This document shows, in pieces, positions 2,609 to 28,192 of a stretch of DNA of 28,514 bases. Positions within the stretch are counted from its first letter, which is position 1; each line of letters starts with the position of its first letter. The translations under genes and the position numbers were made by a program. Source of the stretch: a virus; the IMG/VR virus record IMGVR_UViG_3300017714_000112, positions 1-28,514 of that record. One strand, 5' to 3'. Under the pieces are notes generated by a model that was not told the DNA's origin, did no database searches, and was given only the letters and a program-made list of their open reading frames with translations.

Positions 2609-2709
2609 ACTTTCTAACTGCTATGAACTATTTAGAGATAGATAAAGATTACAATGCTGAAGTACAAAGATTAGAGAAACAGGCAATACAAACTATGAAA
2701 CGATCATGA
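1859..2709 (+). CDS. tail assembly chaperone, long form by -1 frameshift
   Basis: The -1 frame is open from 2407 to a TGA at 2707-2709 and reads as a convincing protein. It runs through an acidic linker (GEENNKDNTQ), then WGWWGTLYNLSKSG, and ends in a charged helix (EKQAIQTMKRS). A slip at the T-run 2448-2454 would join residues 1-199 of the 0 frame to 84 further residues, giving about 283 residues. The TGA overlaps the ATG of the next gene (ATGA at 2706-2709), the coupling expected if the -1 frame is the one translated into the next gene. There is no plausible independent start for the -1 segment near its beginning. The arrangement parallels lambda G/GT. A homopolymer assembly error that split one gene is the main alternative. 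Confidence 0.72.
2410..2455 (+). promoter_or_regulatory. candidate -1 ribosomal frameshift region (two slippery sites)
   Basis: Two T-runs, of nine (2407-2415) and seven (2448-2454) bases, each give the heptamer T TTT TTG in the 0 frame (2410-2416 and 2449-2455). After a -1 slip both the P-site and A-site tRNAs re-pair with TTT codons. A stop (TAG, 2404-2406) closes the -1 frame just upstream of the first run, so any shift must occur at or after 2407. The second run is favoured because the 0-frame peptide between the runs continues a plausible helix. I did not identify a clear downstream pseudoknot. Confidence 0.6.
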
Positions 2710-4538
2710 GTTACCCAAAAAATAATTTAACATATAGAGATATTATAGAACAGTTTCAGGCTGCTACTAATGCCTCTATTGCAGTTGCTACATTTGATAC
2801 CGGTACTATAGATTTTTTAGACGCTAATGCCGTAAATAAAAATTATCCTTATGTTTATCTTAGACCTATATCATCACCAGGTGTAGTAGATAAAGTAAGA
2901 AGTCTAACATTTGAATTATACTCTATGGATGTTCCGTCTTTATCGGATCAATCACCAGTTAGAGTTTTATCAGAAACAGAACAAAGAATATATGACACAA
3001 TTGCTTGGTTTAATTTTGGACCAGCAGAACGTCAACAAGTATACGAAATATCAATGACCGACTTAAGTCCGGTTAATGAAGCATTTCAAGATAGAGTGTT
3101 TGGATGGGTTGCAACTATTGAAGTTGCTACACCTTTCAATTGGAACTATTGTGACTATCCACAAGTATGGCCTACGGCAACAGCAACACCGCCTCCGACA
3201 GCCACACCAACGTCGACTCCAACTAGTACTCCAACCTCTACACCTACAAGTACTCCAACGGGTACACCAACATCAACTCCGGTTCAGCCAACAGCTACTC
3301 CGACAAGTACACCAGGAGGTAGTCCAACACCTACACCTACTACTAGTCCTACGCCAACGGCTACACCACTACCTACAGTTCCTCCAACTCCGACTCCGTC
3401 ACCAACGGCAGCTCCGGTCTACTTTGAATTTAAAATAGATCATAACAATCAATCAGGGTCGTTGTCAGGAAGTTGTGACTTATCTCAATCACTAAACTTC
3501 GAAAGTGTTTATGTTGATTGGAGAGATACAGATCCTGTATGGCCAGATAGAATAGTAGGTAAATCAGTTTACTCTAATGAAGGCTTAACAAACATATATA
3601 CAGGTTCAGCTATATCAGATGGATCTGCTTATAGATTAGCTTATGGTAGTGAATCAGTAGCAGCTACTCCTTCTTATGCAGCAATAGATATTGAATGGAT
3701 GCAATTTACAGCTAGTAACATTGTTAATACTTTAGTACCTTGTGCATTCCCAATAATAGAAACTAGGACATCTATACCACAAACAGTTAGTAGTTCATTA
3801 ATTAGTGCTCAGGTAGATGACTTTGCAGGTAGAAACTTTGATCAATATGGATTCCAATGGAGTACTGGATCTAATGCAACTGCAATGATGGAAGGTAATT
3901 CATATACTTCTAGTCAAATAGGATTAAATCCTTGGGAGTATAGTTTAGAAACTGGTATAAATAGTACATTATATGTAAGAGGATTTGTTAGAGATGATCA
4001 ATCAGGAGCTTACTATTATGGAGATATAGAATCAGCTAGTTCTAAACCAGCTTATCCTTGGCCAGTAAGGTTCTACGATAGTGCTTTAGAAGCAGAAAAA
4101 GCTACATTAAATGAAGCTATTCAAAATAGAACAGATCAAATGAATAGTCAATGTGGAGGTGGTTCTGGAGGAGCTACTACAATATATATTGCTAGTGAAT
4201 ATCCAACCGGTAGTGCAGCAGACTTTAATCCTCCTTACGGATGTACTATATCAGGTAGTGCAATAACTATAAATGACTTTATAGGAGCATCAGTATGGGA
4301 TAATAAAGAATTAACTACACCAGAAAGTTTACAACCAAACAATACAGTAGAAAGATATTATTCTTACTTCGGTAACATACATGGAGTAGATGAAAGAAAT
4401 GACTTTATAGTAATGTATGGAAATAAAGCAATACCAGGAACACCGGATTACGATCCTACTAATCCTAATGCAATTAAGAGAGTAGAAATAATGTCTGGTT
4501 CATTAACTTGTGCATCACCTAATACTTGTAACCCATAA
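2706..4538 (+). CDS. tail terminator/completion-like protein with Thr/Pro linker and surface module
   Basis: This 610-residue protein has three parts. Residues 1 to about 155 (YRDIIEQF, YVYLRPIS, LTFELYSMDVPS) resemble the small tail-terminator proteins that cap the tail tube in Bacteroidota phages; such proteins normally end there. Residues 156-237 are a Thr/Pro/Ser-rich linker. Residues 238-610 are a Ser/Thr/Gly-rich, beta-predicted region with scattered cysteines and a glycine-rich hinge (CGGGSGG). It includes a VYSNEGLTNIYTG segment resembling the repeat modules of the 1874-residue protein downstream. The start ATG overlaps the TGA of the frameshifted chaperone. The fusion suggests a neck protein carrying an exposed decoration or host-binding arm. 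Domain roles are inferred from sequence style and gene position. Confidence 0.65.
   Translation: MSYPKNNLTYRDIIEQFQAATNASIAVATFDTGTIDFLDANAVNKNYPYVYLRPISSPGVVDKVRSLTFELYSMDVPSLSDQSPVRVLSETEQRIYDTIAWFNFGPAERQQVYEISMTDLSPVNEAFQDRVFGWVATIEVATPFNWNYCDYPQVWPTATATPPPTATPTSTPTSTPTSTPTSTPTGTPTSTPVQPTATPTSTPGGSPTPTPTTSPTPTATPLPTVPPTPTPSPTAAPVYFEFKIDHNNQSGSLSGSCDLSQSLNFESVYVDWRDTDPVWPDRIVGKSVYSNEGLTNIYTGSAISDGSAYRLAYGSESVAATPSYAAIDIEWMQFTASNIVNTLVPCAFPIIETRTSIPQTVSSSLISAQVDDFAGRNFDQYGFQWSTGSNATAMMEGNSYTSSQIGLNPWEYSLETGINSTLYVRGFVRDDQSGAYYYGDIESASSKPAYPWPVRFYDSALEAEKATLNEAIQNRTDQMNSQCGGGSGGATTIYIASEYPTGSAADFNPPYGCTISGSAITINDFIGASVWDNKELTTPESLQPNNTVERYYSYFGNIHGVDERNDFIVMYGNKAIPGTPDYDPTNPNAIKRVEIMSGSLTCASPNTCNP
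3171..3416 (+). repeat. Thr/Pro-rich mucin-like linker 1
   Basis: About 82 codons encode almost only Thr, Pro, Ser and Ala in TPTST-type repeats (residues 156-237 of the host protein). Synonymous Thr, Ser and Pro codons are freely mixed, so the protein repeat is much more regular than the DNA repeat. Confidence 0.9.
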
Positions 4539-4879
4539 TGACAGAGAAAGAAGCATTATTACAGTCTTTAAAGGCATTCGGTAAAGAGTTTGAGAATAAT
4601 CTTAAACGTTTAGTACCAGTTAGGGATAAAGGTCCTCAGCCTCCTAAATATGGTGCTCTTAAAGATAGTATAAAGACGTTTGCAGATATAAGCGGAGAGA
4701 CGGTTAAATCCGGCGTAGATATGCTGTACTATGGTCAATACGTTAACAGCGGTACATATAAAATGGCTGCTCAACCATTTATTAATGATGCTTGGGAAGA
4801 AACAAGATTTAATGCTAAGACAGATAAAGCTTTAGAAAAATATTTAGATAGTCAATTCGAAAAAGTATTTAGAAAATAA
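4538..4879 (+). CDS. HK97 gp10-like tail completion / head-tail joining protein
   Basis: This 113-residue protein is small, basic and mostly helical at its ends. The core reads LVPVRDKG...GALKDSIKTF, then VDMLYYGQYVNSGT, then AAQPFINDAWEE. This is the pattern of the HK97 gp10 family (LVPVxTGxLRxSI, then a Y..Y...G motif, then P...pA). Those proteins sit at the head-tail or tail-terminator junction and complete the neck. Its ATG overlaps the previous stop (TAATG), so translation is probably coupled to the tail-terminator-like gene. Its position beside that gene supports a neck role. I see no unusual features. Confidence 0.72.
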   Translation: MTEKEALLQSLKAFGKEFENNLKRLVPVRDKGPQPPKYGALKDSIKTFADISGETVKSGVDMLYYGQYVNSGTYKMAAQPFINDAWEETRFNAKTDKALEKYLDSQFEKVFRK

Positions 4880-5985
4880 TGATAACAGTAAACGCACAAC
4901 CACCGTATCCTAATGCAACATATACTCATTTGTTGTATACGATTACATCTACAGAATCTGGTCAACCTCAGTATCAGTATGTTATGGACGTTAAGCAAGG
5001 AGGAGCTTTACTAACTAGAATAAGACAGTATCCTAATCCTCAAGGAGCAGGAGTATTTGATCCTTCAAGAATACTTAATGACTATATTGACTACGATCAA
5101 AATTGGAAAACATCTACTAATATATTACCAGTAGCTTCAGTACAAACATTTGATATTTTATTTGGTGAAGAGTATGGTACATCAGTATCTTCTTCTGTTA
5201 CTTTATACGATGGTAATGGTAGTCCAGGTAATCCAAATGTATCAACGTCACCAGCACAAGTATTTGGTGCTGTAGTAGATCCTAATAATGGAACTAGTTT
5301 CAATTGGCAGGCACAAGATGTTTTAAGTAACATGCCTCAAACAGATCTAGATATAACTGAAGATGAATATCAAACTCTATCAATTTATAATGATGGAAGT
5401 TTAACTACCGCTCAAGTAAATTATAATCCAGGACCAGTTTCTACTTATAATTTAGTAAGTGGATTTAATACTATACCGGTAGGTGGAAAAAATATAGGAG
5501 TTACTGGATGGGATACAATTACTGTCTCAGTTGACTCACAAAATTATACTTTCAATAAAGCAGATAATTGTAACTATGAAAGACTAAGATTTGCTTTTAT
5601 AAATAAATTTGGCTTTTGGGATTACTTTGGTTGGAATTTACCACAAAGAAAAACTACAGCAATGTCTAGACAGTCTATAACTAGACCCATGGTTAATTAC
5701 TCTGGTCAATTGTCAGTTTATAATCCTACAAGAAGAGGTAAAGATAATTTTAACATACAATATAACGATGTAATAAATGTATCAACGGATTGGTTAGATC
5801 AACAACAAGCAGAATGGATGAGTGAAATGTTAGAATCTCCTTCTGTATTTGTACAAAGTGGAGATAATTTTCTTCCTGTTGTAATTACAAATGGTTCTTA
5901 TGTTCATAATACTAACAAAAGAAGTCAAAAAACATTCCAATACGATATTACATTCGAATACGCAAACCAACAATTAGGTAGATAA
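4879..5985 (+). CDS. tail-tip / distal tail structural protein
   Basis: The 368-residue product is predicted to be mostly beta. The N-terminal part has YQYVMDVKQGGALLTRIRQYPNP followed by FDPSRILNDYI. The later part contains RLRFAFINKFGFWDYFGW and, near the end, WLDQQQAEWMSEMLESPSVF. I associate this arrangement with structural proteins lying between neck and hub genes in Bacteroidota phages, plausibly distal-tail or baseplate components. No catalytic motif is visible. It overlaps the preceding gene by one base (TAATG) and is followed immediately by the large hub gene, so it belongs to the same operon. The exact role is inferred from position. Confidence 0.6.
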   Translation: MITVNAQPPYPNATYTHLLYTITSTESGQPQYQYVMDVKQGGALLTRIRQYPNPQGAGVFDPSRILNDYIDYDQNWKTSTNILPVASVQTFDILFGEEYGTSVSSSVTLYDGNGSPGNPNVSTSPAQVFGAVVDPNNGTSFNWQAQDVLSNMPQTDLDITEDEYQTLSIYNDGSLTTAQVNYNPGPVSTYNLVSGFNTIPVGGKNIGVTGWDTITVSVDSQNYTFNKADNCNYERLRFAFINKFGFWDYFGWNLPQRKTTAMSRQSITRPMVNYSGQLSVYNPTRRGKDNFNIQYNDVINVSTDWLDQQQAEWMSEMLESPSVFVQSGDNFLPVVITNGSYVHNTNKRSQKTFQYDITFEYANQQLGR

Positions 5986-5986
5986 A

Positions 5987-8900
5987 ATGGCAGATGTAAT
6001 TGTTAGAGTCATACACGATGGAACAACTTATGACTTAGACATTGATAATAATATTCCACTAAGGATTGATATCTCAGCTGTTGAGAATCAAGACATCGGA
6101 TCTTTCTTTGGAGTAGGCTCTCAGCAATTCGATCTACCAGGAACTAAAGAAAACAATACATTTTTTAAACATGCATACAACGTCGGTACTAACGGCGTTC
6201 CTGCATTTTATAATAGTATTACAGGATACATTATTTTAAACGGAGAGACAGTCTTAGACGGACAATTCCAGTTATTAGAGGTTATTGCAGATGATATGGG
6301 CTTTGTAACCTATAAATGTCGTATAACTGACCAAGTAGTAACGTTTAATGATGCATTAGGAAGTAAATTAATAGCATCAGGTAGTTGGGATTACTTAAAC
6401 CATACTTTAGACTATGCTAATATAACAGGATCATGGAATGATGAACTATTATCTGGTTCAGTTTACTATCCTTTAGCTTTTTATGGCTTTGAAGATCCTG
6501 AAAATATACAATTACCTTGGTTTGCTTTTAGAGAATCAGGTTCATCAGCAGGAAATTATTTAGATAATAGTTTAACCCCACTACAAGCACAACAGTTAGT
6601 ACCAGCAGTTAAAGTAAAAGATACTTTAGATGTTATATTTGATCAAGTAGGATTTAGATATACCGGTAGTTTTGTTAGTGGTAGTGACTTTGATGACTTA
6701 TATATTTTACCTAAAGCTCAAGAAGGTTTAGGAATCGTAGGAGAACCAGGGCAGGTAGCTACTTGTGATGCTGGTCAGCTAAACAATCAAACAATTGTTA
6801 CACCAGCTCAAGGAAATACAAACATAGATCTTTTAGAATTAGATCAAGTTACTTCTGATCCTACTAATGCTTTTAATACTACAGATCATTATTATCAAAT
6901 AGCAGGTATTGGTGACCATACTTTTGAAGGTCAAATAACTTTTTTTAATCCTGTTTCGTTTTTCAACTCTACTGTTGAAGTTACTCTAACTTTAATGCAA
7001 GGTAGTAGATCAGGAGGAGTAGTTACGGGTACTAATAGATCTTCTCAAACTAGAACATTAACTGCTGCAGATGGATTTGTTGCTATTTCTTTATCTGTAG
7101 GTGCTCAATTTTATGCTTCATCAACTAATGAGGTATTTCTTAGCGTATCTTATAAATACGTTTCAGGAAACACTCCACCTAATTTAACTTTATTTGGATT
7201 TAGTAGTGATTTTAAATGTACTCAAGCTCCTCAAGCTACTGTAGGTGCTACAGTTAACATGGGAAGACAGTTTGGTGGTAATACTAAGTCGTTAGATATA
7301 TTAAAAGGTTTAGTAAATAAATTTAATTTAGTTCTTAGTCCAGTTAAAGGTCAAGAAAGAATTATTTCTATAGATTCTTTTGATAATTGGATGAGATCAG
7401 GTGCAATTAAAGATTGGACTGAAAAATATAATACAGCTACTCGTATTGCTATAAATCATACAGTAGATGAACAACCAAAAGAAATTATCTTAACTGATAA
7501 AGAAGATAACGATAGATTTTCTAAGGTAGCTAAAGAAACTGATCCATATAGACAATATGGTAGTTTGAGATTAATTGCAGATAATAATGTTTCATTAGGA
7601 AAGAAAACTATAGGTGATTATTTTGCTCCTACTATACCAGGAGGTCCATTTGCAACAGATGCTACAGGAACAGGTACAGGTGGTAATGGATCTTTACAAA
7701 TAGATACATCAACTAACTTTATTTTTCCTCATTTATATAAATTAGAGAGTAGTCAAGTAAAATCTTATGCTTTTAAACCTAGATTAGGTTATAAAGTTAA
7801 TGGTACTCTACCAACTACAGCTAATGGTACTGGAATATATGTAGGACCAGCAGGAGGAGGAGTTTCTAACTTATTTACTGGTAGTTATGCTACTATAGCT
7901 AATATTTCTAACGCTCCAGCATTAAATACCTCAAAAAACTTAAACTATAACACAACTTATGCTCCTTTTAGTAATACAAACAACTTAACTGGTGGTACTA
8001 ATGCTTATGATGACTATTGGGCTACCTATATTGAGAGTTTATACTGGGAAGATAGTGTTAAAGTAACGATGGACTTACAGTTCACTCAAAACGAATATTA
8101 TAATATTAACTTAAACGATAGAGTATTCATTAAGGATACTTTTTATCGTATAAATTTAATTCAAGGATTTAACTTATCAGATGATGATATAGCTACAGTA
8201 GAGTTAATTAAACTTTATCCAGCTTATTTCGAAGGATTAGACTTTACAGGATGTACATTTACAGTTACTGCTACTACAAGTAGTTTAGATTGTGACTTAA
8301 ATACTCCTACACCTACTCCAACATTTGTACCAACACCAGTAGGACCTACACCAACACCATCACCAACTCCTACTGCTACACCGATACAGACATCGACTCC
8401 AACAGCTACAGCAGGTCCAACACCTACTCCAAGTGCTACTCCTGCACCTACAGCAACATTACCAGCTGGAGTTAATGAGTATAGATTTACTTCTGCTCAT
8501 TTAAACTTAGGAGATGCTTGTGTAGACGATACAGATGCTTATATAGCTTATAGTTCATTAGGAGCAATAGAAACAATTACTACTGCTTCATTATTCTATG
8601 AAGATACTGCTTTAACTCAATTATGGGATCAAGGAGGTAATAATTTATACTACGGTATTAACGAAGCACCATTAAGTGGTTCACCATATATTGCAGGATT
8701 GTTAAATACTGGTCAATTTACTAATTTAAGTATTTGTCCTACACCTACGGCTACTCCAAATGCAACACCAACACCTACACCTCTTGTAGCATTCCCAATT
8801 AGTGCATCAGAGAATAGTCTTACTAGTAATCTTTGTACTGCTCCATTAACTCAGTCATTATTTACTAATAAAATAATTCCAAACTGGCCTACTGGTGCTA

Positions 8901-11611: not shown

Positions 11612-12399
11612 TGGCAGGATCAGTAACATTACAATTAACAACAGGATCATCAGAAGTAGGTAACTTTACTATCTACTGTGAGAGTGCTGATCCAGGAAAT
11701 GAAATAGCTCAGAACGTATCTTCTGCTAGTTTAGCAGCTGGGTATTGTACTGATGAGATATGTACTCAGTATGTTATAAAATCTAATACTAACGAATGTC
11801 AAACTCAATTAGTAGTATATAAAGATGGTCCTCCGCCTACACCTACACCAGTACCAGGAGTTACTCCTACACCTACACCAATTGTTAACCCAACACTAAG
11901 TAATGGTTGGAGATTCCAGGCAGGTACCTTTTTTAATGCAACGGATGGATTCCATAGAGGTACTTTATTTGGTTGTCCTTCAGTATTTGGATTTGGTACA
12001 CCGGTTACTCCTACTACAACTCAAATAAGTTTACCGGGTACTAACTGTTACACTGGAAGTGCTCCTTATTTCTTCCCAATAGATAAAGGATATGGTATAG
12101 GAGGAGTTGGTAATGCTTCACAGTATGCTTTAACACAGTTTACATATGATAGGACTGGAGGAACAGTATCAGCAGGAATTATAAACGGAAATGGATTTGG
12201 TAATCCAGGAAGCGTTAGTCTATCTGGTTTAATTCAAGGTAGTGACGGTAGTAGTGGTACTTGGTCAGGTACTTTTACTCCAGGAGAAACTTACACTGAT
12301 GCAAATGGAGTAGCTTATACACCAGAGAGTACTGGCCCTGTAGTAATGACTGGAATAAGTACGCTAACACCTAACGTAACATATAATATTACAACATAA
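11611..12399 (+). CDS. secreted-style two-domain virion display protein with Thr/Pro linker
   Basis: The ATG at 11611 overlaps the stop of the giant tail gene (TAATG), so I prefer it to an upstream in-frame TTG; this gives 262 residues. Residues 1 to about 72 form a small Cys-containing beta domain (VTLQLTTGSSEVGNFTIYC, two later Cys pairs). A short PPPTPTPVPG...TPTPTP linker follows. A Gly/Ser/Thr-rich C-terminal domain (from about residue 95, with LFGC and GTNC cysteines) completes the protein. No known enzyme motif is visible. It shares the linker style of the two preceding large tail proteins and probably sits with them on the virion surface. Function is otherwise unknown. Confidence 0.6.
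   Translation: MAGSVTLQLTTGSSEVGNFTIYCESADPGNEIAQNVSSASLAAGYCTDEICTQYVIKSNTNECQTQLVVYKDGPPPTPTPVPGVTPTPTPIVNPTLSNGWRFQAGTFFNATDGFHRGTLFGCPSVFGFGTPVTPTTTQISLPGTNCYTGSAPYFFPIDKGYGIGGVGNASQYALTQFTYDRTGGTVSAGIINGNGFGNPGSVSLSGLIQGSDGSSGTWSGTFTPGETYTDANGVAYTPESTGPVVMTGISTLTPNVTYNITT
11830..11893 (+). repeat. Thr/Pro-rich linker 4
   Basis: About 21 codons of PTPTP repeats interrupted by VPGV. They join the two domains of the 262-residue display protein. Confidence 0.8.
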
Positions 12400-12512
12400 T
12401 GAAAGTAAAAGAATTACCAATAGATGAAATGAAAAGAGTAGTTGAGTTACTTCAAGAGGCTGGGGTACCAATGAGGGATATACCTGACATGGAATTACCT
12501 GACCAGGAATAA
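12399..12512 (+). CDS. 37-residue hypothetical protein
   Basis: A short ORF begins with an ATG overlapping the previous stop (TAATG) and ends with TAA at 12510-12512, just before the tape measure gene. The product starts MKVKELPIDEMKRVVELLQE and ends in an acidic tail. It looks like a small amphipathic helix followed by a disordered acidic end. The coupled start and full use of the space between two structural genes support it being translated. Homology is not recognisable and no function is proposed. Confidence 0.55.
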   Translation: MKVKELPIDEMKRVVELLQEAGVPMRDIPDMELPDQE

Positions 12513-12533
12513 AATTTAACTTTATTTATATAC

Positions 12534-14129
12534 ATGGCTACAAAAACTTATAAAGTCGAAATCGATGTCGAATCGAAAACGCTCGGACAACTCGAAGATG
12601 AGTTAGCTCAGATTAATGAGGAGTTAAGGGATGTCGATAGAAATAGTGAAGCCTTTAAGAATTTATCTAAAGAAGCTCAAGCTCTTAATAAAGAGATAGA
12701 GAAAACTAATAATGAGATAGAGGGTTTAAAGCTAGAGGATAAACTTATGGCTGCTGATGGAGCAGCTAGAGTATTTGGTGGTTCCTTAGCTACAGTAGTC
12801 GGTACTTTAGGAGTATTAGGAGTAGAATCAGAAGCTTTTGGAGAATTTGAAAAGAAAGCAGCATCTGCCATTGCAGTAGGTTTAGGAGTTAAAGATGTCG
12901 CAGAAGGATTTGGTAACCTTTCTTTAGTAATGAAGAAGAGTGGTATTGCTGCTAAATTATTTGGTAGTACAACATCTAAAGCTTTAATTGCTACAGGTAT
13001 TGGTGCATTTATAGTAGCATTAGGTACCGTTATAGCTTATTGGGACGATATAACAGCAGGAGCTAAGAAATTTGCTAACTCAGTACCTTTCATAGGTCAG
13101 GCAATAGAAGGAATAAAGAATCTTTTTGGAGATTTAATGGATGCTGCTAGACCAGTACTAGAGTTCTTAGGTATTTTACCAGATGCAGCAGAAAGAGCTC
13201 AAATGGCTATAGTAGAAACTACAGACTTAGCTATACAAGAATTACAAAGAGAATTAGCTATAGCACAGGCAGCAGGAGAAGATGCTAAAGAAATATTTAG
13301 GATTAGACAGGAGTTAATTGAAACTGAATTAACAAACTTAAAAGCTGCTAATGCTGAAAAAGAAGAAATATACAAAAAAGAAACAGAACTATTAGCTTTA
13401 CAGGCAGCTGAACAAAAGAGAATAAGAGAAGGAATGTCTGATGTAGTTATAAGAGAGAAAGTAACTACAGTAAATACTCTTAAGGCTAAAGGACTAGAAG
13501 AAATAGAAGTTGCAGGTCTTACTGCTCAAACTGTAGAAATAATAAACCATCAGAAAGTAGCAGATGAAGCTGCTTATACATTAGCGGTTATTGACAATCA
13601 AATGAAGTTAGATGCTGCTAAAAGACAAGGTTTAGATAATCTTATAGCTATAGTAGGAGCTGAAAGTAAGGTAGGTAGAGCTGCTCTAATAGCAAAACAA
13701 GTATTAGCTGCTAAGGAATTGTTTATGGAGGCTAAAAAGACAATTACTTTTGCAACATTAAAAGCTTCAGAAGCTACAGTAGCAACAGCTACAGGTGCAG
13801 CTAAAACAGCAGCAGTTGGATTTCCAGCAAATATTCCATTACTTATAGCTTATGCAGTTCAAGCAGCAGGAATCATCGCAGCAGTAGTCTCAGCTGTTAG
13901 AGGAGCTAAAAAAGCTAGTAAAGGAGTAGGAGGAGATGTCCCAATGCCTTCTATGTCTTCAGCAGGGTTAGGAGCAGGAGGTCCTGCAGCTGCACCGACA
14001 CCACAACAAGCACCAGTACAAGAAATATGTCCAGAACCAACAATTAAAGCTTATGTACTCTCAGGAGATGCTAGAAATGCTCAAGAGGCAGATGCTAAAT
14101 TAAACAACAGAAGAACGTTGGGAGGATAA
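12534..14129 (+). CDS. tail tape measure protein
   Basis: The tape measure sets tail length and is ejected with the DNA. The 531-residue product begins with a long coiled coil (about residues 14-66, rich in LEDELAQINEEL-type heptads). An Ala/Gly-rich hydrophobic region follows, including a likely membrane segment at about 150-170 (ALIATGIGAFIVALGTVIAYW). A second charged helical region (about 220-310) and a hydrophobic Ala-rich stretch near residue 430 come next, with an Ala/Pro-rich tail. This architecture is typical of tape measures. It is short; at about 1.5 angstroms per residue it would suit a tail of roughly 80 nm. The start lies 3 bases after a TATTTATA element. The gene directly precedes the head protease, an unusual neighbour. 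Confidence 0.8.
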   Translation: MATKTYKVEIDVESKTLGQLEDELAQINEELRDVDRNSEAFKNLSKEAQALNKEIEKTNNEIEGLKLEDKLMAADGAARVFGGSLATVVGTLGVLGVESEAFGEFEKKAASAIAVGLGVKDVAEGFGNLSLVMKKSGIAAKLFGSTTSKALIATGIGAFIVALGTVIAYWDDITAGAKKFANSVPFIGQAIEGIKNLFGDLMDAARPVLEFLGILPDAAERAQMAIVETTDLAIQELQRELAIAQAAGEDAKEIFRIRQELIETELTNLKAANAEKEEIYKKETELLALQAAEQKRIREGMSDVVIREKVTTVNTLKAKGLEEIEVAGLTAQTVEIINHQKVADEAAYTLAVIDNQMKLDAAKRQGLDNLIAIVGAESKVGRAALIAKQVLAAKELFMEAKKTITFATLKASEATVATATGAAKTAAVGFPANIPLLIAYAVQAAGIIAAVVSAVRGAKKASKGVGGDVPMPSMSSAGLGAGGPAAAPTPQQAPVQEICPEPTIKAYVLSGDARNAQEADAKLNNRRTLGG

Positions 14130-14144
14130 AACCTATTTATATTT

Positions 14145-15368
14145 ATGAAGATTTTCGAATTACTTATTGACGAACTAGATAAACTAACAGGAGTAGATGC
14201 AGTAGCATTGGTAGAAGAACCAGCTATGGAAGCAGACTTCTATGCATTTAATAATAAAGAAATAGAAGATTTTGTTATTAAACAAATAATAGAAAAAGAG
14301 CTATTTGTAGAAAGAATGCCTGGTGAAGGTAGAGATGAGTATATTGGTAGATGTATTCCAGTACTTAAAAAAGAAGGATACGACGAAGATCAGGCAGCAG
14401 CTATATGTTATGATGCCTTAAAAAAAAACTTTGAGTCAATAATAGATGATGGTAAACCCCTATTCGATACTATAGAAGAAGCTGAAAAAGTAGCTTTACA
14501 GTTAGGATGTGAGGGACATCATGAACATGAGATAGACGGAAAAGTATGGTATATGCCCTGTAAAGAGCATTCTGACTTAACCGATGATCTACTAGAGCAA
14601 TATCAATTTGAATCCTTTACTGATTACCCTGAATCTGCAACAAATGCTGCCAAAAGAGCTCTTGAATGGAAAGACGAACATCCAGATAACGACTGTGGTA
14701 CAAGAGTTGGATGGGCAAGAGCTAACCAGCTTGCTAACAAACGAGCAATATCAGAAGAGACTATTGCTAGAATGGCTTCATTTGCTAGACATTTACAACA
14801 TGAAGACGTTCCTTACTCAGAAGGGTGTGGTGGACTAATGGTAGATGCTTGGGGTGGTAGAGCAGGTATAGAATGGGCTAAGAATAAGTTAGAGTCTATT
14901 AGAGAAGAGAACAGTGCAGAGACATTTGCTAAACACGGGAGTAACGCGAAATATACCTTTGCTTTAGATAAAGAACAACAGATGGTTGTAGGTCCTTTAA
15001 TGATTCCAGATAAATTAATTTTTAGACTAGATGAACAAGGAGAACCTTACTATGTATTCTTTAGTCAAGATACAATAAAACAAATAGCTCAAAAGATGAT
15101 GAAAGATAAACATATCGATTCAGTAAATCTAGAGCATAACCCAGACAATACTGTAGATGGATATATGGTTTCTACTTGGATAGTAGAAGATGAAATGAAA
15201 GACAAACAACAAGTATATGGATTTAATTATCCAGCAGGTACTTGGTTTGGTCAATATAAGATCGAAGATATGTCTGTTTGGGAAAAAGTTAAAGCAGGAG
15301 AGATCAAAGGATTCTCCGTAGAAGGCTTCTTTGCCGATAAGTTTGTTCAAGCTAAGAAACAACATTAA
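14145..15368 (+). CDS. XkdF-type head maturation protease with extra central domain
   Basis: This protease should process the scaffold and possibly the capsid protein during head maturation. The N-terminus carries the signature VDAVALVEEPAMEADF (residues 17-32) of XkdF-like phage proteases. A short helical motif follows (GRDEYIGRCIPVLKKEGY...AAAICY). Residues about 161-255 form a second conserved unit (YPESATNAAKRALEW, GWARANQL, GCGGLMVDAWGG). I know this unit from other phage head proteases but cannot give it a function. The C-terminal protease region (about 283-400) contains NLEHN (His331) and KGFSVEG (Ser391), candidate catalytic residues. The start follows a TATTTATA element. The expected substrate, the scaffold gene, lies beyond the inserted glycosyltransferase cassette. 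Confidence 0.85.
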   Translation: MKIFELLIDELDKLTGVDAVALVEEPAMEADFYAFNNKEIEDFVIKQIIEKELFVERMPGEGRDEYIGRCIPVLKKEGYDEDQAAAICYDALKKNFESIIDDGKPLFDTIEEAEKVALQLGCEGHHEHEIDGKVWYMPCKEHSDLTDDLLEQYQFESFTDYPESATNAAKRALEWKDEHPDNDCGTRVGWARANQLANKRAISEETIARMASFARHLQHEDVPYSEGCGGLMVDAWGGRAGIEWAKNKLESIREENSAETFAKHGSNAKYTFALDKEQQMVVGPLMIPDKLIFRLDEQGEPYYVFFSQDTIKQIAQKMMKDKHIDSVNLEHNPDNTVDGYMVSTWIVEDEMKDKQQVYGFNYPAGTWFGQYKIEDMSVWEKVKAGEIKGFSVEGFFADKFVQAKKQH

Positions 15369-15393
15369 TATATATTTATATACTTATATATAA

Positions 15394-15425
15394 AGAGAAA
15401 CCCCGGTGTTTCAATTCGGGGTCTC
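15394..15425. terminator. stem-loop at convergent gene junction
   Basis: GAGA, then CCCCG (15401-15405), an 11-base loop, then CGGGG (15417-15421) and TCTC form an imperfect GC-rich hairpin 3' of the protease gene. There is no good T-run on the plus strand; on the minus strand CTCTTTATATA follows. It probably stops or stabilises transcripts from one or both sides. Confidence 0.5.
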
Positions 15426-15437
15426 AGAACTATGTAT

Positions 15438-15478
15438 AAAAAAATAAAATAGTACGGGCTAAGAGTGCCCATTTGTAC
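15438..15478 (-). terminator. candidate terminator of the glycosyltransferase operon
   Basis: On the minus strand, GTAC...GGGC, a 7-base loop, then GCCC GTAC (15452-15478) is followed by a T-rich tract (complement of the A-run at 15439-15449). It lies about 30 bases beyond the last gene of the minus-strand cassette. Confidence 0.55.
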
Positions 15479-15506
15479 ATATACAATATAAGAACTTTAT
15501 TTTAAA

Positions 15507-16298
15507 CTACCAACTAAATAAAGGAAAATATTCTCTCCAATTAGACTTAATTAATTTATAGTTATCAGGAGATCTTAAATACGTTATATCAAACATCTTC
15601 TCATCACTACCAATATATTTATTTTTTAAACTATTATCAATAGTTATTTCCATTTCATCTATTAGAGAGTCTAAGGTATCGTTAGGTACAAAGAAACAAG
15701 TACCATGTATAAATCTCATTTGAGATAATGCATGTGATTCTATATTATGAATACTAATTTTTTCATGGTGAGAGAAAAATGTAGGTTTAGTTATATCTAT
15801 CTTTTTAGGATCTGGCCATTTCTTATGAGCATAACTTAGTATATCTTCTCTATAAGTACCAGCGTCTTTCCAAACATAAACATCTCCGTTAAAGAATTTA
15901 TTGTCTCTAGCATTTCTTAACCAATATAATTTATTAAACATAATAGTATTATATAAAGGTTTAGTCATTTCAGGTACATCAAAGTGTGCCTTATCTGTAA
16001 ATTCTTGTGTCTGCATTAGATTTTCTAGTCTCTTATAGAATAACTTATAAGCAGTTAGATCTTCTGTCTTCTGTACGATAATCTTAGTATTCTCCATTGT
16101 AGGATCATATACCTTTCTATTATCGTATATAGCTTTAAAAAATTTCTCTTCTGTATATATTACTATAGGATTATCTATAGAGAGAACATTTCTCATCCAA
16201 TGTAAATAAGTATGGTAAGACATTTTAAAGTTATCCCACTTATCTCTTTTTATATCAAATAACGATTGAACTATAACTGGTTTTATATCCATTCCCAA
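15507..16298 (-). CDS. HtrL/YibB (WlaTC)-like glycosyltransferase
   Basis: The 263-residue product opens with PVIVQSLFDIKRDKWDNF, followed by NPIVIYTEE. A later NKLYWLRNA...GDVYVWKDAG segment ends in Asp145. This order matches the HtrL/YibB family, predicted GT-A-type glycosyltransferases found in lipopolysaccharide and capsule loci; the acidic residue in VWKDAG probably takes the place of the DxD metal site. It is the last gene of a minus-strand operon and overlaps the upstream gene by 16 bases. No signal peptide or transmembrane segment is seen, so it should act in the cytoplasm on a nucleotide sugar. Acceptor unknown. Confidence 0.7.
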   Translation of the reverse strand: MGMDIKPVIVQSLFDIKRDKWDNFKMSYHTYLHWMRNVLSIDNPIVIYTEEKFFKAIYDNRKVYDPTMENTKIIVQKTEDLTAYKLFYKRLENLMQTQEFTDKAHFDVPEMTKPLYNTIMFNKLYWLRNARDNKFFNGDVYVWKDAGTYREDILSYAHKKWPDPKKIDITKPTFFSHHEKISIHNIESHALSQMRFIHGTCFFVPNDTLDSLIDEMEITIDNSLKNKYIGSDEKMFDITYLRSPDNYKLIKSNWREYFPLFSW

Positions 16299-17023
16299 TT
16301 TATTTTAGTATGTTTATGTAATACGTTTACTTTATCATTATCGAAATGTTTACTATTAGAGTTTTCGTCAAAAATAGTATCTAAAGTATAACCGTGATGG
16401 TTAAGTATAGTTGGTACAAATCCTTCTGAGTAACCATACATTCCAGACTTTAAATGTTTCATTAATAAGTTTAAAGATCTTTTACTAAACCTAACAATAG
16501 GAAAAAATGAACCAAATAGATTATTACAAGTTCTAGGTAACCTATCGTTATATCCTGGAAATCTCATAAACCATTGAGCACCAGAATAACTGTTTTCGTT
16601 AATTTTAGGTATATTTATCTGTTGACTTACTAATGGATGTTTAAAACAATACAGTGAAATAAAATCACTAGTATTATTCTCAAAACCTTTATAAAATAAA
16701 TCCCAATCGGCAACCGTCACATCATCGTCATAGAACCAATAGTAATCGTAACCTTTATTGTGAATATAGTAGTATAACATTCTAAAATGTGCATAAAACC
16801 AAATTACATTTCGGTTGCCGTAGGAATTATAATAGTGTTTAGGACTAACGCTATCAGTAAAGTTAAAGCTATTCCTAATATCTTGTTCTGTATACTGTAA
16901 ACCTTTTGGTAAAGAATGAGTTGTTACATCTGTTAGGTAATCAAACTCTATATTTTGTTTATCCCAATAGCTTTTATAAGCATTATATGTTGGTTTATAA
17001 GTACAAACTATATTCTTATGCAT
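16283..17023 (-). CDS. putative GT-A-fold glycosyltransferase with DDD motif
   Basis: The 246-residue product has a strand-loop YDYYWFYDDDVTVADW with Asp99-Asp100-Asp101, the pattern of the metal/nucleotide-sugar DxD site of GT-A glycosyltransferases. A preceding aromatic-rich helix (NVIWFYAHFRMLYYYIH) and a C-terminal His (LHKHTKINWEW) are also compatible with this fold. It is soluble, with no membrane segment. It overlaps both neighbours (8 and 16 bases), indicating tight co-translation with the other transferases. I cannot assign a CAZy family; the call rests on the DDD motif and context. Confidence 0.62.
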   Translation of the reverse strand: MHKNIVCTYKPTYNAYKSYWDKQNIEFDYLTDVTTHSLPKGLQYTEQDIRNSFNFTDSVSPKHYYNSYGNRNVIWFYAHFRMLYYYIHNKGYDYYWFYDDDVTVADWDLFYKGFENNTSDFISLYCFKHPLVSQQINIPKINENSYSGAQWFMRFPGYNDRLPRTCNNLFGSFFPIVRFSKRSLNLLMKHLKSGMYGYSEGFVPTILNHHGYTLDTIFDENSNSKHFDNDKVNVLHKHTKINWEWI

Positions 17024-17810
17024 ACAATTTTGTTAATATTTTATGTATTTCTGGGGTACGGTTAAACTGGTGTACTATATCATAGTCTTGCCATCTAGGA
17101 ACTAAACCATATCTTTGTTTTATTCTATCCCCAAATCCCCAAGCTTCAAAAAACTGTGTAGGACCTGCTACAGCCATATGTATACACCAATTATCTGTTA
17201 AGTTAAATTTTTTAACAGCAAATATATCTTTATAAATTACTATGTTCATAGCAGCTTGATCTTCTATATCATGACCTTTTTTACTAGTTAAACATTCAGT
17301 ATTCATTTGTCTTAAGTATTTAGATAATACTTCTATATCTCCAGCTATAACTCCACTACAATATACCTCTTGATCTTTAGTAGGTTGAGTATAAGAAGGA
17401 AAACATTTATTCATAACATCAGTATTCCAAGGCTCTTCTCTATGTAAAACTCCTTCTCCTGCTACAAATATATCAGCTTCATCAGTTATTTTAAGGAAAG
17501 GGTCTTTTAAAAAAGCTACGTCAAATACATCTGTGTATAAAACTTTATTATAGTACTGTTTATTATCTTCTAAGAAATCAGCCATAGGTAATAATCTCAT
17601 ATTATTGACTGTTTCATTACTATTTTCTCTTATACCTTGATATCTAATATTATGTTTTTCTAATGCTTTTATATCTGGTCCAGTAGGATTATAAGCAACT
17701 AAGATAACATCATCGTTATTAGTTACTGCTTCAAATGAGTTTTTCCATAGTAATATTTTATCTATGTTTTGCTCTATATTGTTACATACTCCTGTTAGTA
17801 AGTTGTTCAT
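17016..17810 (-). CDS. putative glycosyltransferase with TDVFD metal site
   Basis: The 264-residue product contains VLYTDVFDVAFLKDPF, with Asp94 and Asp97 in a DxxD site. This is the typical strand end of a GT-A-like family in which a [L/T]TDxxDxxF.xPF motif binds the metal-nucleotide sugar. It also has DIEDQAAMN, which fits the acceptor-side region, and ends with IVHQFNR, matching the C-terminal HQ(Y/F)xR usual in that family. The gene overlaps the upstream gene by 4 bases (ATGA) and the downstream one by 8. Donor sugar and acceptor cannot be read from the sequence. Confidence 0.68.
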   Translation of the reverse strand: MNNLLTGVCNNIEQNIDKILLWKNSFEAVTNNDDVILVAYNPTGPDIKALEKHNIRYQGIRENSNETVNNMRLLPMADFLEDNKQYYNKVLYTDVFDVAFLKDPFLKITDEADIFVAGEGVLHREEPWNTDVMNKCFPSYTQPTKDQEVYCSGVIAGDIEVLSKYLRQMNTECLTSKKGHDIEDQAAMNIVIYKDIFAVKKFNLTDNWCIHMAVAGPTQFFEAWGFGDRIKQRYGLVPRWQDYDIVHQFNRTPEIHKILTKLYA

Positions 17811-19057
17811 AGTACCATTATTTTTTTAGTTTGCCATCCATCTTTATTTCCTGGCCATATAATTATTTGATGAGGTTTAGGACCTGTATAAGATTTCCAT
17901 ATAGTAAAGTCTCCGCCATCTCTAGCTGCTTTAACTTTGTTGTTAAATTGTTCTCCATCCATATCTTCTCTATGTATTTGAGTACCATCTTTATCTTCAA
18001 ATATAAAAGCACAAAAAGTATAATCGTCTAAAGGAAAGTCATAGTGATTTAAATCTATAGCATGTTTAAATTCTGCACTATAAGTATCTTCTTTATTACC
18101 AGGAGGATGATTATTAGCTTTAGTTCTATCTGATATAGCTCTTTCTTTAAATTTTATACCAGCATATATTTCGTAATCTTCTAGAGTTCTAACTGTACCT
18201 AAGCCGTATTTAGTTTCTTTTATTTCATCTTCACTATCAACATGTAGTAAGCTTCTTACTTTAGCATGACAAGCTTTATTTCTAGCTCCCCATTCCTTAT
18301 CGTCATCCCATTGTTTAGTTCTACCTTTTCTAGTATATTCATGCCAAGCTAAAACTTTATTGGGGTGAAATAAATTATAACCGTGAGTATAAGATCTAAC
18401 TGCTAATGTTATTTCTTCTCCGTGAAAATAATATTCTGGATCATGTTGTACTTCTATAGCATGTTTACCTAAAGTAAAGGCAAAGTGAGCAGAAAAGAAT
18501 CTAGCTGGTATAGGATGTAAGGGTTTATTATCTATGTAATAGGGTAGAAAGAATACTACACCCTCAGGGGTAAATCTATCGAAAGACATACCCCATGGAT
18601 GATTGACCCGTCCGTCAGGTTCATTTTCTGGATTATAAGAAGGAATATAACTAGTAAGTAAAGGTTTGTCGTTACCCAGGTTAATTAACCCCTTTAACAT
18701 TGTTATACATTCTTCATCCCAATTTTCTATAAACCTATGGTGGGAGTCTAATTGTAAGGTATAATCTTCACCTCGGTATTGTTGTTGTATTAGGTTTCTA
18801 GCCCAACAAGCACCCTTACTATCGCTATAAGGGATATCAATAATGTTACATCTAGTATTATCATGAAATTCGTCTAAGTTATCCCAGTCGTCTTCTGGGT
18901 TATGTTGCCAGGCTATACATACGTTTAGTCTATCTGGATGCTTAGCCTTTGAGAATAAATCTCTTAATGTTGGAACTAATTCAGGGTCCCTATATGCAGC
19001 TATTTGTACGAATATAGTTTCTTCTCCCTGTTTCTTTTTATCAAAATTAAAACCCAT
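17807..19057 (-). CDS. GlcNAc-transferase family protein (PF11397, GT60-like)
   Basis: This 416-residue protein shows the family pattern clearly. It has IFVQIAAYRDPELVPTLRDL (residues 15-34), then LNVCIAWQ, then KGACWARNLIQ (81-91), then YTLQLDSHHRF (99-109), where the Asp-containing DSHxRF replaces the classical DxD. FSAHFAF and the NKVLAWHEYTR region come later. PF11397 includes the eukaryotic GT60 enzymes that transfer GlcNAc to hydroxyproline of Skp1 or to Thr in parasite glycoproteins; bacterial members are mostly uncharacterised. The C-terminal quarter looks like a separate beta domain. It begins 8 bases after the stop of the GIY-YIG gene and is translationally coupled to the next transferase. 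Family assignment is strong, acceptor unknown. Confidence 0.8.
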   Translation of the reverse strand: MGFNFDKKKQGEETIFVQIAAYRDPELVPTLRDLFSKAKHPDRLNVCIAWQHNPEDDWDNLDEFHDNTRCNIIDIPYSDSKGACWARNLIQQQYRGEDYTLQLDSHHRFIENWDEECITMLKGLINLGNDKPLLTSYIPSYNPENEPDGRVNHPWGMSFDRFTPEGVVFFLPYYIDNKPLHPIPARFFSAHFAFTLGKHAIEVQHDPEYYFHGEEITLAVRSYTHGYNLFHPNKVLAWHEYTRKGRTKQWDDDKEWGARNKACHAKVRSLLHVDSEDEIKETKYGLGTVRTLEDYEIYAGIKFKERAISDRTKANNHPPGNKEDTYSAEFKHAIDLNHYDFPLDDYTFCAFIFEDKDGTQIHREDMDGEQFNNKVKAARDGGDFTIWKSYTGPKPHQIIIWPGNKDGWQTKKIMVL

Positions 19058-19065
19058 TTATTTAT

Positions 19066-19533
19066 TTATTTTTTCCAATGTGTGTTTAGTGCTGGCTGGA
19101 GTAATTTAATCCAGTGCTTTTCTATATCTAATCTCGTATGTTCATCATCTGATTCTGCAATTACAAATGAAGTAATATACTTAGCTTTGTGATGATAAAG
19201 AACTGATTCTTTACTGTAAGGTCTTTTATGTTGAGCTAATCTCAGTCTTAGTGATCCAGAACTACCTACATATAAACCTTTATCAGTTACAACTATGTAG
19301 ACCCCTCCTTTAAGTTTTCCTCTCCATCTAGTACCATTAGCTTTACTTAATTGTTTCCATTGTTCAGTATTTTCTCCTCTCCATTTTTTAGCAGTCTCTT
19401 TAGTCATTTTATTATAATGACATTTTTTACAATAGTTATAAGTATAAACTTTATTTTGTTTCTTATTATTAATTGTATAGTAATCACTTATAGGTAAGTC
19501 TTTATTACATTTAGTACATACTTTATTCTCCAT
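19066..19533 (-). CDS. GIY-YIG endonuclease with N-terminal zinc finger
   Basis: The 155-residue product starts with a Cys4 zinc knuckle (CxxC at 6/9 and 35/38), common in phage homing endonucleases. The GIY-YIG core follows: GVYIV at 77-81, LYVGSS at 87-92, then Arg (96 or 98), His102, and the catalytic Glu138 in DIEKHWIKLLQPALN with Asn150. All core residues seem present, so the enzyme is probably active. It would nick or cut DNA at a recognition site and could spread itself and linked DNA between phages. It is the first gene of the minus-strand cassette, 8 bases upstream of the GT60-like gene. It may be a free-standing homing gene linked to the cassette by chance. Confidence 0.85.
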   Translation of the reverse strand: MENKVCTKCNKDLPISDYYTINNKKQNKVYTYNYCKKCHYNKMTKETAKKWRGENTEQWKQLSKANGTRWRGKLKGGVYIVVTDKGLYVGSSGSLRLRLAQHKRPYSKESVLYHHKAKYITSFVIAESDDEHTRLDIEKHWIKLLQPALNTHWKK

Positions 19534-20506: not shown

Positions 20507-21412
20507 ATGGCAACAGGACTTAACGTTTCAGCCCTTAATGACTTTAATAACGAAGTAGCTGGGCGAATCATTCCTAAAATTGTTTTCGAAGGATATACAA
20601 CATCTGTTCTTCCAATTCAAGAAGGAATTAAATATCAAGAACCTTTAAATCTATTTGATGTAGATTTACAAATTCAAACTGGTAGCTGTGTATCGACTCC
20701 ATCAGGGTCTTTCAACGCTACACAGAGAAACATAACAGTAACAGATAGAATCTCTTACGACGGATTATGTTTAGACGACCTAAACTCTAAGTACTTAGGT
20801 ATATCTGCACTATCTGCAGGATCATATAACGAAACATTTGCATTAGCAGAAACTTATTCTGACTTAATCGTAAATCAAATGAAGAAAAAAGATGACCAAT
20901 TCCTATGGAATACTACAGACGGTCTAGGTCTTTTAACTTCAGGATCTACAGCAGGGGTTGTAACTCCAGCATTAGCAAATGTACCAGTAATAGTAGGAGA
21001 TATCTTAGAAATCATCGACGAATTAATTATTAACCTACCGGATGACGTAGCTGATAGAGATGATTTAACAGTATGGATGTCAGTAGCTTCTTTCAGAAAG
21101 TATGTAACTGCTCTAAGAACGTTAAATAACTTTTACTTCGATCCTTCATCTGTAGCAAACAGACATGGTATCTTACAAATGCAATATCCTTTCCAAAACG
21201 TAAAAGTAATTGGAACAAGTGGTATTACAGGAGAAAGAATTGCTCTTATGCCTGATCAATATGCAGTAGTTGGTACAGACTTAATGTCTGACGTTTCTAA
21301 CTTCTCATTATGGTATGACATAAATGCTGACCAATTAAAACATAGACTAAAGTCTAAGTTAGGTGTGCAAATTGCATACCCTGAGTACGTTATTTCTAAC
21401 GATAGAAACTAA
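20507..21412 (+). CDS. major capsid protein
   Basis: The 301-residue product is an HK97-fold capsid candidate. The N-terminal arm (ALNDFNNEVAGRIIPKIVFEG) leads to the E-loop region and a central LCLDDLNSKYL. An A-domain follows with VWMSVASFRKYVTALRTLNNFYF and IGTSGITGERIALMPDQYAVVGTDLMSD, a pattern common in Bacteroidota phage capsid proteins. It lies directly after the scaffold and is followed by a strong terminator, so scaffold and capsid can form one abundant transcript. Codons are regular and no truncation is seen. The absence of a long N-terminal extension agrees with a separate scaffold. Confidence 0.88.
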   Translation: MATGLNVSALNDFNNEVAGRIIPKIVFEGYTTSVLPIQEGIKYQEPLNLFDVDLQIQTGSCVSTPSGSFNATQRNITVTDRISYDGLCLDDLNSKYLGISALSAGSYNETFALAETYSDLIVNQMKKKDDQFLWNTTDGLGLLTSGSTAGVVTPALANVPVIVGDILEIIDELIINLPDDVADRDDLTVWMSVASFRKYVTALRTLNNFYFDPSSVANRHGILQMQYPFQNVKVIGTSGITGERIALMPDQYAVVGTDLMSDVSNFSLWYDINADQLKHRLKSKLGVQIAYPEYVISNDRN

Positions 21413-21425
21413 TAGAAGATCAAAT

Positions 21426-21451
21426 AAGGCGGTTTCGGCCGCCTTTTTTTT
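21426..21451 (+). terminator. rho-independent terminator after the capsid gene
   Basis: AAGGCGG (21426-21432), a six-base loop and CCGCCTT (21439-21445) form a perfect 7-bp stem running into eight T's ending at 21451. It lies 14 bases after the capsid stop and should end or attenuate the scaffold-capsid transcript. Confidence 0.92.
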
Positions 21452-21471
21452 AACATTTAAAAACTTATAAT

Positions 21472-22023: not shown

Positions 22024-22041
22024 ATACTAATTACAAAAATT

Positions 22042-22076
22042 GGGGACGGTTCTAGTAGGAACTCTCCCCTTTTTTT
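22042..22076 (+). terminator. rho-independent terminator after the tail tube gene
   Basis: GGGGA (22042-22046) pairs with TCCCC (22065-22069). An inner GTTC/GAAC stem sits above a small internal mismatch. Seven T's follow (22070-22076). It lies 19 bases after the stop. Confidence 0.88.
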
Positions 22077-22091
22077 CTTATATTTAATAGT

Positions 22092-22550: not shown

Positions 22551-22551
22551 A

Positions 22552-28010: not shown

Positions 28011-28192
28011 GTTTAATAATTAACTTCGGATTGATAATTCTGTGTCTATCCTTAGTTTATCCTAAAGCCTTAGTATGGTATAGGAAAAGACAGAAACGTA
28101 GAGAGAACCTTTCTAAACTGGAGAGAGCCAACTTAATCAAGACGATTAGAGTAGAAGTTAGAAGGTATCTAGAAGAACTACAAGAAAAATGA
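27992..28192 (+). CDS. small membrane-anchored protein
   Basis: The 66-residue product has one N-terminal membrane segment (about residues 5-23, ISLIINFGLIILCLSLVY). A basic cytoplasmic-type stretch (YRKRQKRREN) and a charged helix follow. The ATG lies 19 bases inside the end of the sigma-like gene. Its stop overlaps the next ATG (ATGA), so three genes are co-translated. The topology resembles small phage spanin- or holin-associated proteins, but no lysis enzyme is visible nearby, so function stays open. Confidence 0.6.
   Translation: MQLFEISLIINFGLIILCLSLVYPKALVWYRKRQKRRENLSKLERANLIKTIRVEVRRYLEELQEK

Follow-up and report, generated by a model that had tools for sequence, protein, structure and literature searches.

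In a stretch of viral DNA of 28,514 nucleotides (hereafter, the window), a cassette of four glycosyltransferase-like genes was found in the same region as three virion genes that encode Thr/Pro-rich linkers. Judging from sequence, this cassette is probably a phage-encoded O-glycosylation module for the virion linkers, in which the enzyme is matched to the type of linker. The evidence consists of gene assignments, protein folds, conserved motifs and a statistical association between enzyme and linker type.

The three virion genes are all on the plus strand. The first (2706-4538) encodes a tail/connector-region protein of 610 aa with a single Thr/Pro/Ser tract of 90 aa, including 32 Thr and 28 Pro (residues 150-239; linker DNA at 3153-3422). 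The second (5987-11611) encodes a large tail protein of 1874 aa with four tracts of 164 aa in total (8294-8476, 8729-8803, 9899-9982 and 10901-11050), while the third (11602-12399), for which comparison with the relative L006 suggests that the true start is probably an ATG some 9 bases downstream of the listed TTG, encodes a small tail protein with one tract of 23 aa (11836-11904). The first-pass annotation described three consecutive tail genes with long Thr/Pro/Ser linkers; three such genes are indeed present, but they are not consecutive, two tract-free genes, one HK97-gp10-like (4538-4879) and the other at 4879-5985, being located between the first and the second. The window contains no match to DNA patterns for five exact TP or [TSA]P repeats, and the tracts were defined at the ORF level instead. 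Since composition-preserving shuffles of each protein gave any tract in only 33, 14 and 9 of 500 cases for the first, second and third gene products, respectively, the length and number of the tracts are far beyond chance, and a comparable tract is absent from every other protein of the window. The N-terminal part of about 150 aa of the first product exists in relatives as a stand-alone, tract-free protein (L008:3328-3789), indicating that it is a conserved structural domain, which the linker connects with an additional C-terminal part. For the second product, the N-terminal half is conserved throughout the phage family, and the equivalent of the third gene carries longer tracts in relatives (L006: 1063 aa).

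The four glycosyltransferase-like genes, as first annotated, form a single operon, a tight block with overlapping ends on the minus strand (15507-19057), opposite to the strand of the three virion genes. GTa (17807-19057), the proposed linker-initiating enzyme, was confirmed to be a member of PF11397/GT60 (E = 5.6e-74; 250 bits against a cut-off of 21), with the match spanning positions 96-350 of 352 and covering the catalytic domain, and it also matched phrog_24687 (3.5e-167). The GT60 family is characterized by DxH in place of DxD (PMC7185993), and alignment of 10 diverse members of the GTa family indicated invariant L-Q-x-D-S-H (DxH), HGEE and WHEY motifs; no solved structure was found near GT60 by sequence. 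GTb (17016-17810, minus strand) is a predicted GT-A fold enzyme (model pLDDT 93.3), with a fold nearest to the GT6 alpha-1,3-Gal/GalNAc transferases (Foldseek against PDB, best E 2e-9, TM about 0.6) and with D-x-F-D invariant among 12 members; assignment to GT6 itself was rejected, the resemblance being one of fold without a match to PF03414 or any other Pfam family. GTc (16283-17023, minus strand) is likewise a predicted GT-A fold enzyme (model pLDDT 86.6) with an invariant DDD motif, its best Foldseek matches being B3GalT5 and others (E 1.5e-5, TM about 0.5). Against Pfam, PHROG and NCBIfam, neither GTb nor GTc matched any family above its cut-off. GTd (15507-16298, minus strand), a probable glycosyltransferase, belongs to the HtrL_YibB family (PF09612, 2.4e-18, 67.2 bits, cut-off 24.1), and its score for the narrower TIGR02192 equivalog (69.3 bits) is below the cut-off of 264.9. 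Preceding the cassette is a gene for a GIY-YIG endonuclease (19066-19533, minus strand; PF01541, 1.1e-7), a possible mobility factor, which also adjoins the cassette or the GT60 gene in G099, G100, G142, G169 and G171.

The co-occurrence of linkers and transferases across phages was examined starting from the linkers as well as from the enzyme, against controls and also among the phages of the window's family, and the results support a functional link. PF11397 was present in 15 of the 50 Thr/Pro-tract phage records and absent from the other 35, many of which are fragments, versus 1 of 48 tail-repeat controls (Fisher 1.8e-4), and the sole positive control record itself has Thr/Pro tracts. With the enzyme as the starting point, the Thr/Pro DNA motif was detected in 24 of 43 GT60 records versus 3 of 48 controls (Fisher 1.6e-7). 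Among 42 non-redundant loci, a Thr/Pro-tract gene is located directly upstream of GT60 on the same strand at a distance of about 50 bp in 10, and few or no such genes were found more than 8 genes away; in locus L070, a five-gene cassette is bracketed by Thr/Pro-tract genes. HtrL_YibB alone was dropped as a marker, as it occurs in Thr/Pro records only where GT60 is also present. Isolated phages matching GT60 number only three, all distant and from Xanthomonas/Stenotrophomonas, and do not provide clean examples because their Thr/Pro tracts are about 9 kb away on the opposite strand. Coupling of phage-encoded glycosyltransferases to virion proteins, a feature of virion glycosylation of the mycobacteriophage type, was thus found.

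A second pairing of linker and enzyme was identified in the relatives G150 and G165, which carry poly-Thr linkers and, in place of GT60 and directly downstream in the same slot, a gene for a protein that we refer to as YLSCQ ("prophage pi2 protein 34"), a putative glycosyltransferase as suggested by DxD-like motifs. The poly-Thr/YLSCQ pairing was predicted beforehand to recur, and it was found at 15 of 15 environmental loci from about six lineages and at 8 of 8 loci in cultured phages; the poly-Thr tag is absent from all of the homologous major tail proteins (6/6) of phages without the YLSCQ gene. YLSCQ occurs with poly-Thr tags in phages of Lactococcus, Lactobacillus, Enterococcus and Staphylococcus; in prophage bIL285 of Lactococcus lactis IL1403, for example, orf45 is of the YLSCQ type and the orf50 product has nine Thr at its end. 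Profile comparison indicated no relation of YLSCQ to GTb, GTc or GTd, and no solved structure was found near it by sequence. This system resembles that of the window in that a putative glycosyltransferase adjoins virion proteins with a Thr-rich tag, but differs in the tag type, poly-Thr instead of Thr/Pro, and in an enzyme unrelated to GTb-d. The coupling of a second enzyme to poly-Thr is hard to explain otherwise, and therefore argues that the enzymes act on the linkers.

Serotype-converting phage glycosyltransferases are well known, and the cassette might instead modify host surface glycans (LPS or capsule) so as to prevent superinfection or change the receptor, being near the tail genes merely as part of a shared adsorption module. 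In agreement with such a role, 12 of the 43 GT60 records, including one of 251 kb, have neither Thr/Pro nor poly-Thr tracts, indicating that GT60 cassettes can lack a linker substrate, and the FkbM, carbamoyl- and methyltransferases carried by sister cassettes also suit cell-surface glycans. This explanation is rather unlikely, however, as GT60 is specific to the Thr/Pro phages while generic GT2 (PF00535) is not (12 of 50 Thr/Pro records versus 11 of 48 tail-repeat controls, no difference), a control that also rules out an association of any glycosyltransferase with Thr/Pro tails, and as a second, unrelated enzyme follows the second linker type. In addition, no hydrophobic membrane segment was found in GTa-d, and neither a flippase nor an anchor-type glycosyltransferase in the window.

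Within the window's own phage family, Thr/Pro linkers were found in 13 of 13 GT60 records for which the tail region could be read, while the fully readable relatives without GT60 have no Thr/Pro linkers, with the one exception of G174, a near-complete relative with linkers, in which neither GT60 nor any other glycosyltransferase was detectable. This exception would suit linkers that are plain, unmodified rigid spacers, co-inherited with the cassette by modular exchange of the tail locus without enzymatic link; Pro-rich linkers are stiff even without sugars, these phages are mosaic, and the labels cluster on the tree. Kinship was controlled by a tree of one tail gene, by which ancestry is only partly controlled, and on which a few GT-negative labels (for example G147) represent contigs broken at the relevant site. 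We consider plain spacers quite improbable, since members of the family have the cassette at three or more different sites (between the protease and capsid genes, upstream of a sigma-like gene, and directly after the linker gene) and it nevertheless follows the linker, and since the poly-Thr/YLSCQ pairing returns in unrelated Gram-positive phages, there on C-terminal tags of capsid and tail-tube proteins rather than on linkers. Independence of linkers and transferases among relatives, which would speak against the functional link, was thus seen in part only, in the tract-free GT60 records and in G174.

The cytoplasmic GT60 enzyme of Dictyostelium acts on hydroxyproline, but a Skp1-like pathway, in which linker prolines are hydroxylated and then glycosylated by GT60, is most improbable, with no 2OG-Fe(II) oxygenase seen among the window ORFs and with prolyl hydroxylases failing to co-occur (PF13640 in only 2 of 43 GT60 records). 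Glycosylation of phage DNA bases by the cassette has an equally slight chance: phage DNA glycosyltransferases are common (cited in PMC12619734), but the ORF list of the window includes neither a base hydroxylase nor a nucleotide-modification gene, the characterized GT60 members act on polypeptides (PMC9472816, PMC7185993), and the coupling is with protein linkers.

For glycosylation of the virion linkers, we infer the following reaction, donor, sequence of steps and benefit to the phage. Late in infection, GTa would act in the cytoplasm on newly made tail proteins and initiate glycosylation at Thr (perhaps also Ser) of their Thr/Pro linkers. The initial sugar would probably be GlcNAc or a comparable hexosamine in alpha linkage, supplied by a nucleotide sugar of the host, and GTb, GTc and GTd would then extend it; in related phages, DUF3431, GT29 sialyltransferase-like, GT25, carbamoyl- and methyltransferases replace GTb-d for extension or decoration. 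Glycans of this kind would make the linkers, by which the C-terminal tail domains are displayed, stiffer and better protected, and would diversify the virion surface. The earlier appeal to the general O-glycosylation of Bacteroidota is neither needed nor supported, as its D-(S/T)-(A/I/L/V/M/T) motif is essentially absent from the window tracts (a single copy, bordering one of them).

A close enzymatic parallel is TcOGNT, the GT60 enzyme of Trypanosoma cruzi, by which Thr residues of mucin-like proteins receive alpha-GlcNAc, with KPPTTTTTTTTKPP as the substrate in the activity assay (PMC3769586, PMC9472816). GT60 clusters with GT27, a family of Ser/Thr polypeptide transferases, the DxH being common to both (PMC7185993). 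The two systems share the GT60 family, a Thr-rich, Pro-containing acceptor and further glycosyltransferases that extend the first sugar, but that of T. cruzi is a eukaryotic Golgi pathway, whereas the phage enzymes are predicted to be soluble and cytoplasmic, with different partner glycosyltransferases. Chromosomal GT60-HtrL cassettes of Bacteroidota (Jiulongibacter L628 and the Saprospiraceae MAG L630) combine GT60 with carbamoyltransferase and/or FkbM-HtrL-type genes and adjoin a Thr/Pro-tract protein as do the phage cassettes, but they belong to cells, and the protein at L630 bears a sorting tail for type IX secretion and is therefore secreted, not virion. Virion glycosylation is already known in mycobacteriophages, of which the phage-encoded glycosyltransferases place glycans at the C-termini of capsid and tail-tube proteins (Freeman et al. 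2023, as cited in PMC12619734). Both cases concern a tailed phage with its own glycosyltransferases, that of the window being uncultured; the present system differs in having GT60 as its lead enzyme and, as proposed targets, internal Thr/Pro linkers in tail proteins that are variable, and in that the type of enzyme follows that of the linker. A search of open-licence papers, in which absence is weak evidence, brought up neither a GT60 phage system nor poly-Thr tags, and the GT60/linker form looks like a new variant.

On a wider scale, we somewhat favor the view that Thr-rich acceptor tags of defined type, either Thr/Pro linkers or poly-Thr at capsid and tail-tube proteins, are added or inserted by tailed phages across phyla along with a dedicated, tag-specific glycosyltransferase cassette, GT60 for Thr/Pro and the hitherto unassigned YLSCQ family for poly-Thr, forming a mucin-like virion glycocalyx in which the tag predicts the enzyme. 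The poly-Thr-tagged phages of Lactococcus and Lactobacillus, such as prophage bIL285 and the Lactobacillus casei phage PLE3, represent culturable systems for this idea, and bacterial GT60 may serve as a simple tool for Thr-O-glycosylation. Phage glycans influence immune recognition, for which mycobacteriophages are the precedent cited in PMC12619734, and virion glycosylation therefore bears on phage ecology and therapy. If the proposal is true, many uncultured aquatic phages, together with phages of lactic acid bacteria, would make a mucin-like coat by their own enzymes, and the function of unknown "moron" glycosyltransferases would become readable from the linker in the neighboring virion gene.

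The 28,514-base virus contig carries a near-complete structural module, including genes for a large terminase (590-1834), an HK97-gp10-like protein (4538-4879), a tape-measure-like protein (12534-14129), an XkdF-type protease (14145-15368), capsid and portal (20507-23751) and fibres; with these structural genes present, no replication genes were recognisable in the contig or in its relatives of about 30 kb. Thr/Pro-rich tracts (linkers) are carried by three tail-region genes on the plus strand (2706-4538, 5987-11611 and 11602-12399), as the first-pass annotation had claimed, but these are not consecutive, two tract-free genes lying between the first and the second. On the opposite strand, between the protease and capsid genes, four tightly packed genes (15507-19057) form the cassette GTa (17807-19057), GTb (17016-17810), GTc (16283-17023) and GTd (15507-16298). 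A GIY-YIG gene (19066-19533) with an N-terminal Cys-rich motif lies beside it, as in most family members that have the cassette at this location; the cassette may be mobile. At the right end stands a sigma-like gene (28189-28479), which in relatives (for example, locus L008) connects to the terminase region; this suggests a circular or circularly permuted map.

The earlier description of all four as glycosyltransferase-like agrees well with family matches for GTa and GTd and with the folds of models for GTb and GTc. GTa belongs to GT60/PF11397 (5.6e-74) and has the DxH motif, given for GT60 and mucin-type GT27 in a survey of GT-A enzymes (PMC7185993), and GTd is HtrL_YibB. No Pfam, PHROG or NCBIfam family was found above cut-off for GTb or GTc. 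AlphaFold models, each built with 12 relatives (pLDDT 93.3 for GTb and 86.6 for GTc), gave GT-A folds closest to GT6 alpha-1,3-Gal/GalNAc transferases for GTb (E 2e-9, TM about 0.6) and to B3GalT-like enzymes for GTc (E 1.5e-5, TM about 0.5), with invariant Asp motifs kept in both.

Scanning viral contigs for PF11397 relatives yielded 262 encoding stretches, from which 80 loci were kept. The order GTa-GTb-GTc-GTd was found again in unrelated phages; in most other loci GT60 is paired with an FkbM-HtrL fusion, with variable genes in between (GT25, a PLOD-type GT domain, carbamoyltransferase, CmcI-type methyltransferase and DUF3431). Two members of the window's family have a GT29 sialyltransferase-like gene next to GT60, and GTb-GTd were not found there. 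Such a pattern, in which the first enzyme stays the same and those after it vary, would fit an initiating transferase with changing extensions. The nearest chromosomal cassettes adjoining a Thr/Pro-tract protein are from Bacteroidota; GT60-HtrL cassettes in Jiulongibacter sediminis (L628) and a Saprospiraceae MAG (L630) lie divergent from such a protein, that of L630 bearing a type IX secretion sorting tail.

The proposed co-occurrence of Thr/Pro linkers and transferases was indeed found across phages. The Thr/Pro DNA motif was present in 24/43 GT60 records versus 3/48 control records, picked by a collagen-like Gly-Thr-Ser tail repeat, and adding tracts by ORF definition raised the former to about 31/43. 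In the reverse test, PF11397 was detected in 15/50 low-GC Thr/Pro-pattern records versus 1/48 controls, the sole positive control also having Thr/Pro tracts. Generic GT2 showed no difference (12/50 versus 11/48), and HtrL was confined, among the Thr/Pro records searched, to those also holding GT60. The tract lies within three same-strand genes upstream in 14/43 GT60 loci versus 1/61 control loci; it is in the gene directly upstream, on the same strand and about 50 bp off, in 10 of 42 non-redundant loci, at position +4 in 5 of 41, and almost never more than eight genes away.

Within the window's own family, for which relatives were collected with one tail and one head gene and some 40 records were read completely or for the greater part, Thr/Pro linkers were present in all 13 records with a cassette and readable tail. 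None was found in the GT60-less records with readable candidate sites (G145, G150, G155, G180 and the near-identical pair G165/G166); the exception, G174, has the linkers without GT60 or any other recognised glycosyltransferase. The cassette lies on the minus strand between protease and capsid genes in the window, G099, G100 and G142, upstream of the sigma-like gene in G102 and G173, and directly behind a linker gene in G149 and G154, indicating that it follows the linker and not a fixed map position. On a tree of one tail gene the joint label needs 7 changes versus a shuffled mean of 10.5; the association is thus partly inherited, and that part is not independent evidence.

In G150 and G165, long poly-Thr/Ser linkers replace Thr/Pro, and directly behind them both encode YLSCQ, a putative transferase of 315 residues with an FHDxD motif. 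G165 has two extra genes, one a radical SAM protein; this radical SAM/SPASM gene (L581:10726-11652) also belongs to the poly-Thr cassette of its relatives (L617, L619, L623). The prediction, made before the scan, that YLSCQ genes elsewhere adjoin poly-Thr linkers was borne out: a poly-Thr gene lies within three genes upstream in 15/15 loci, representing about six lineages including phages distant from the window's family, and a Thr/Pro tract in 0/15. Poly-Thr was found in 2/43 GT60 and 1/61 control loci. At one YLSCQ locus (L624) a GT6 enzyme adjoins the gene.

Isolated phages hold 72 YLSCQ relatives, the family being of the 'prophage pi2 protein 34' type. In the eight loci read (L721-L728: MA9V-3, a Chryseobacterium phage, PLE3, phiFL1A, nattely, SA2, CHPC971, Iacchus and bIL285), poly-Thr stands at the end of, or within, head or tail proteins near YLSCQ, as tags on capsid and major tail proteins; an example is ...TTTTTSTTTTTTSSTTTTTTT in the major tail protein of phiFL1A, and PLE3 carries poly-Thr on capsid and tail proteins. 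No such tag was found at the ends of six homologous major tail proteins of phages lacking YLSCQ in the stretch read. In Staphylococcus phage VB-SauS-SA2 (L725:3117-3930), the C-terminus of the major tail protein is poly-Thr and the repeat runs on in an overlapping frame, which looks as though frameshifting gave a longer tagged form of the tail-tube protein.

That two unrelated enzymes are each tied to their own Thr-rich type is the strongest argument that they act on the linkers. Transfer of alpha-GlcNAc to Thr in mucin-like proteins is the reaction of characterised GT60 enzymes; for T. cruzi, it was assayed on KPPTTTTTTTTKPP (PMC3769586, PMC9472816). The phage enzymes, in none of which (GTa-GTd) a membrane segment was found, would be cytoplasmic and modify freshly synthesised tail proteins ahead of assembly, with host UDP-sugars as donors. 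Some GT60 cassettes must have a different acceptor or a target in the host, since 12/43 GT60 records, one of them 251 kb, have neither Thr/Pro nor poly-Thr. Many contigs in these surveys are fragments. Action of host general O-glycosylation on the Thr/Pro tracts is not expected. Hydroxyproline was considered as acceptor, but prolyl hydroxylase did not co-occur, so that Thr is the likely acceptor.

Mycobacteriophages are described, in work cited in PMC12619734, as encoding glycosylation of capsid and tail-tube C-termini, whereas the system proposed for the window phage is GT60-led and associated with Thr/Pro linkers. Judged by the open literature searched, two features are new: the GT60-led form with Thr/Pro linkers as its proposed target, and the matching of enzyme type to linker type. 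The poly-Thr tags near YLSCQ possibly represent a virion modification that is widespread among Gram-positive phages but has gone unrecognised.
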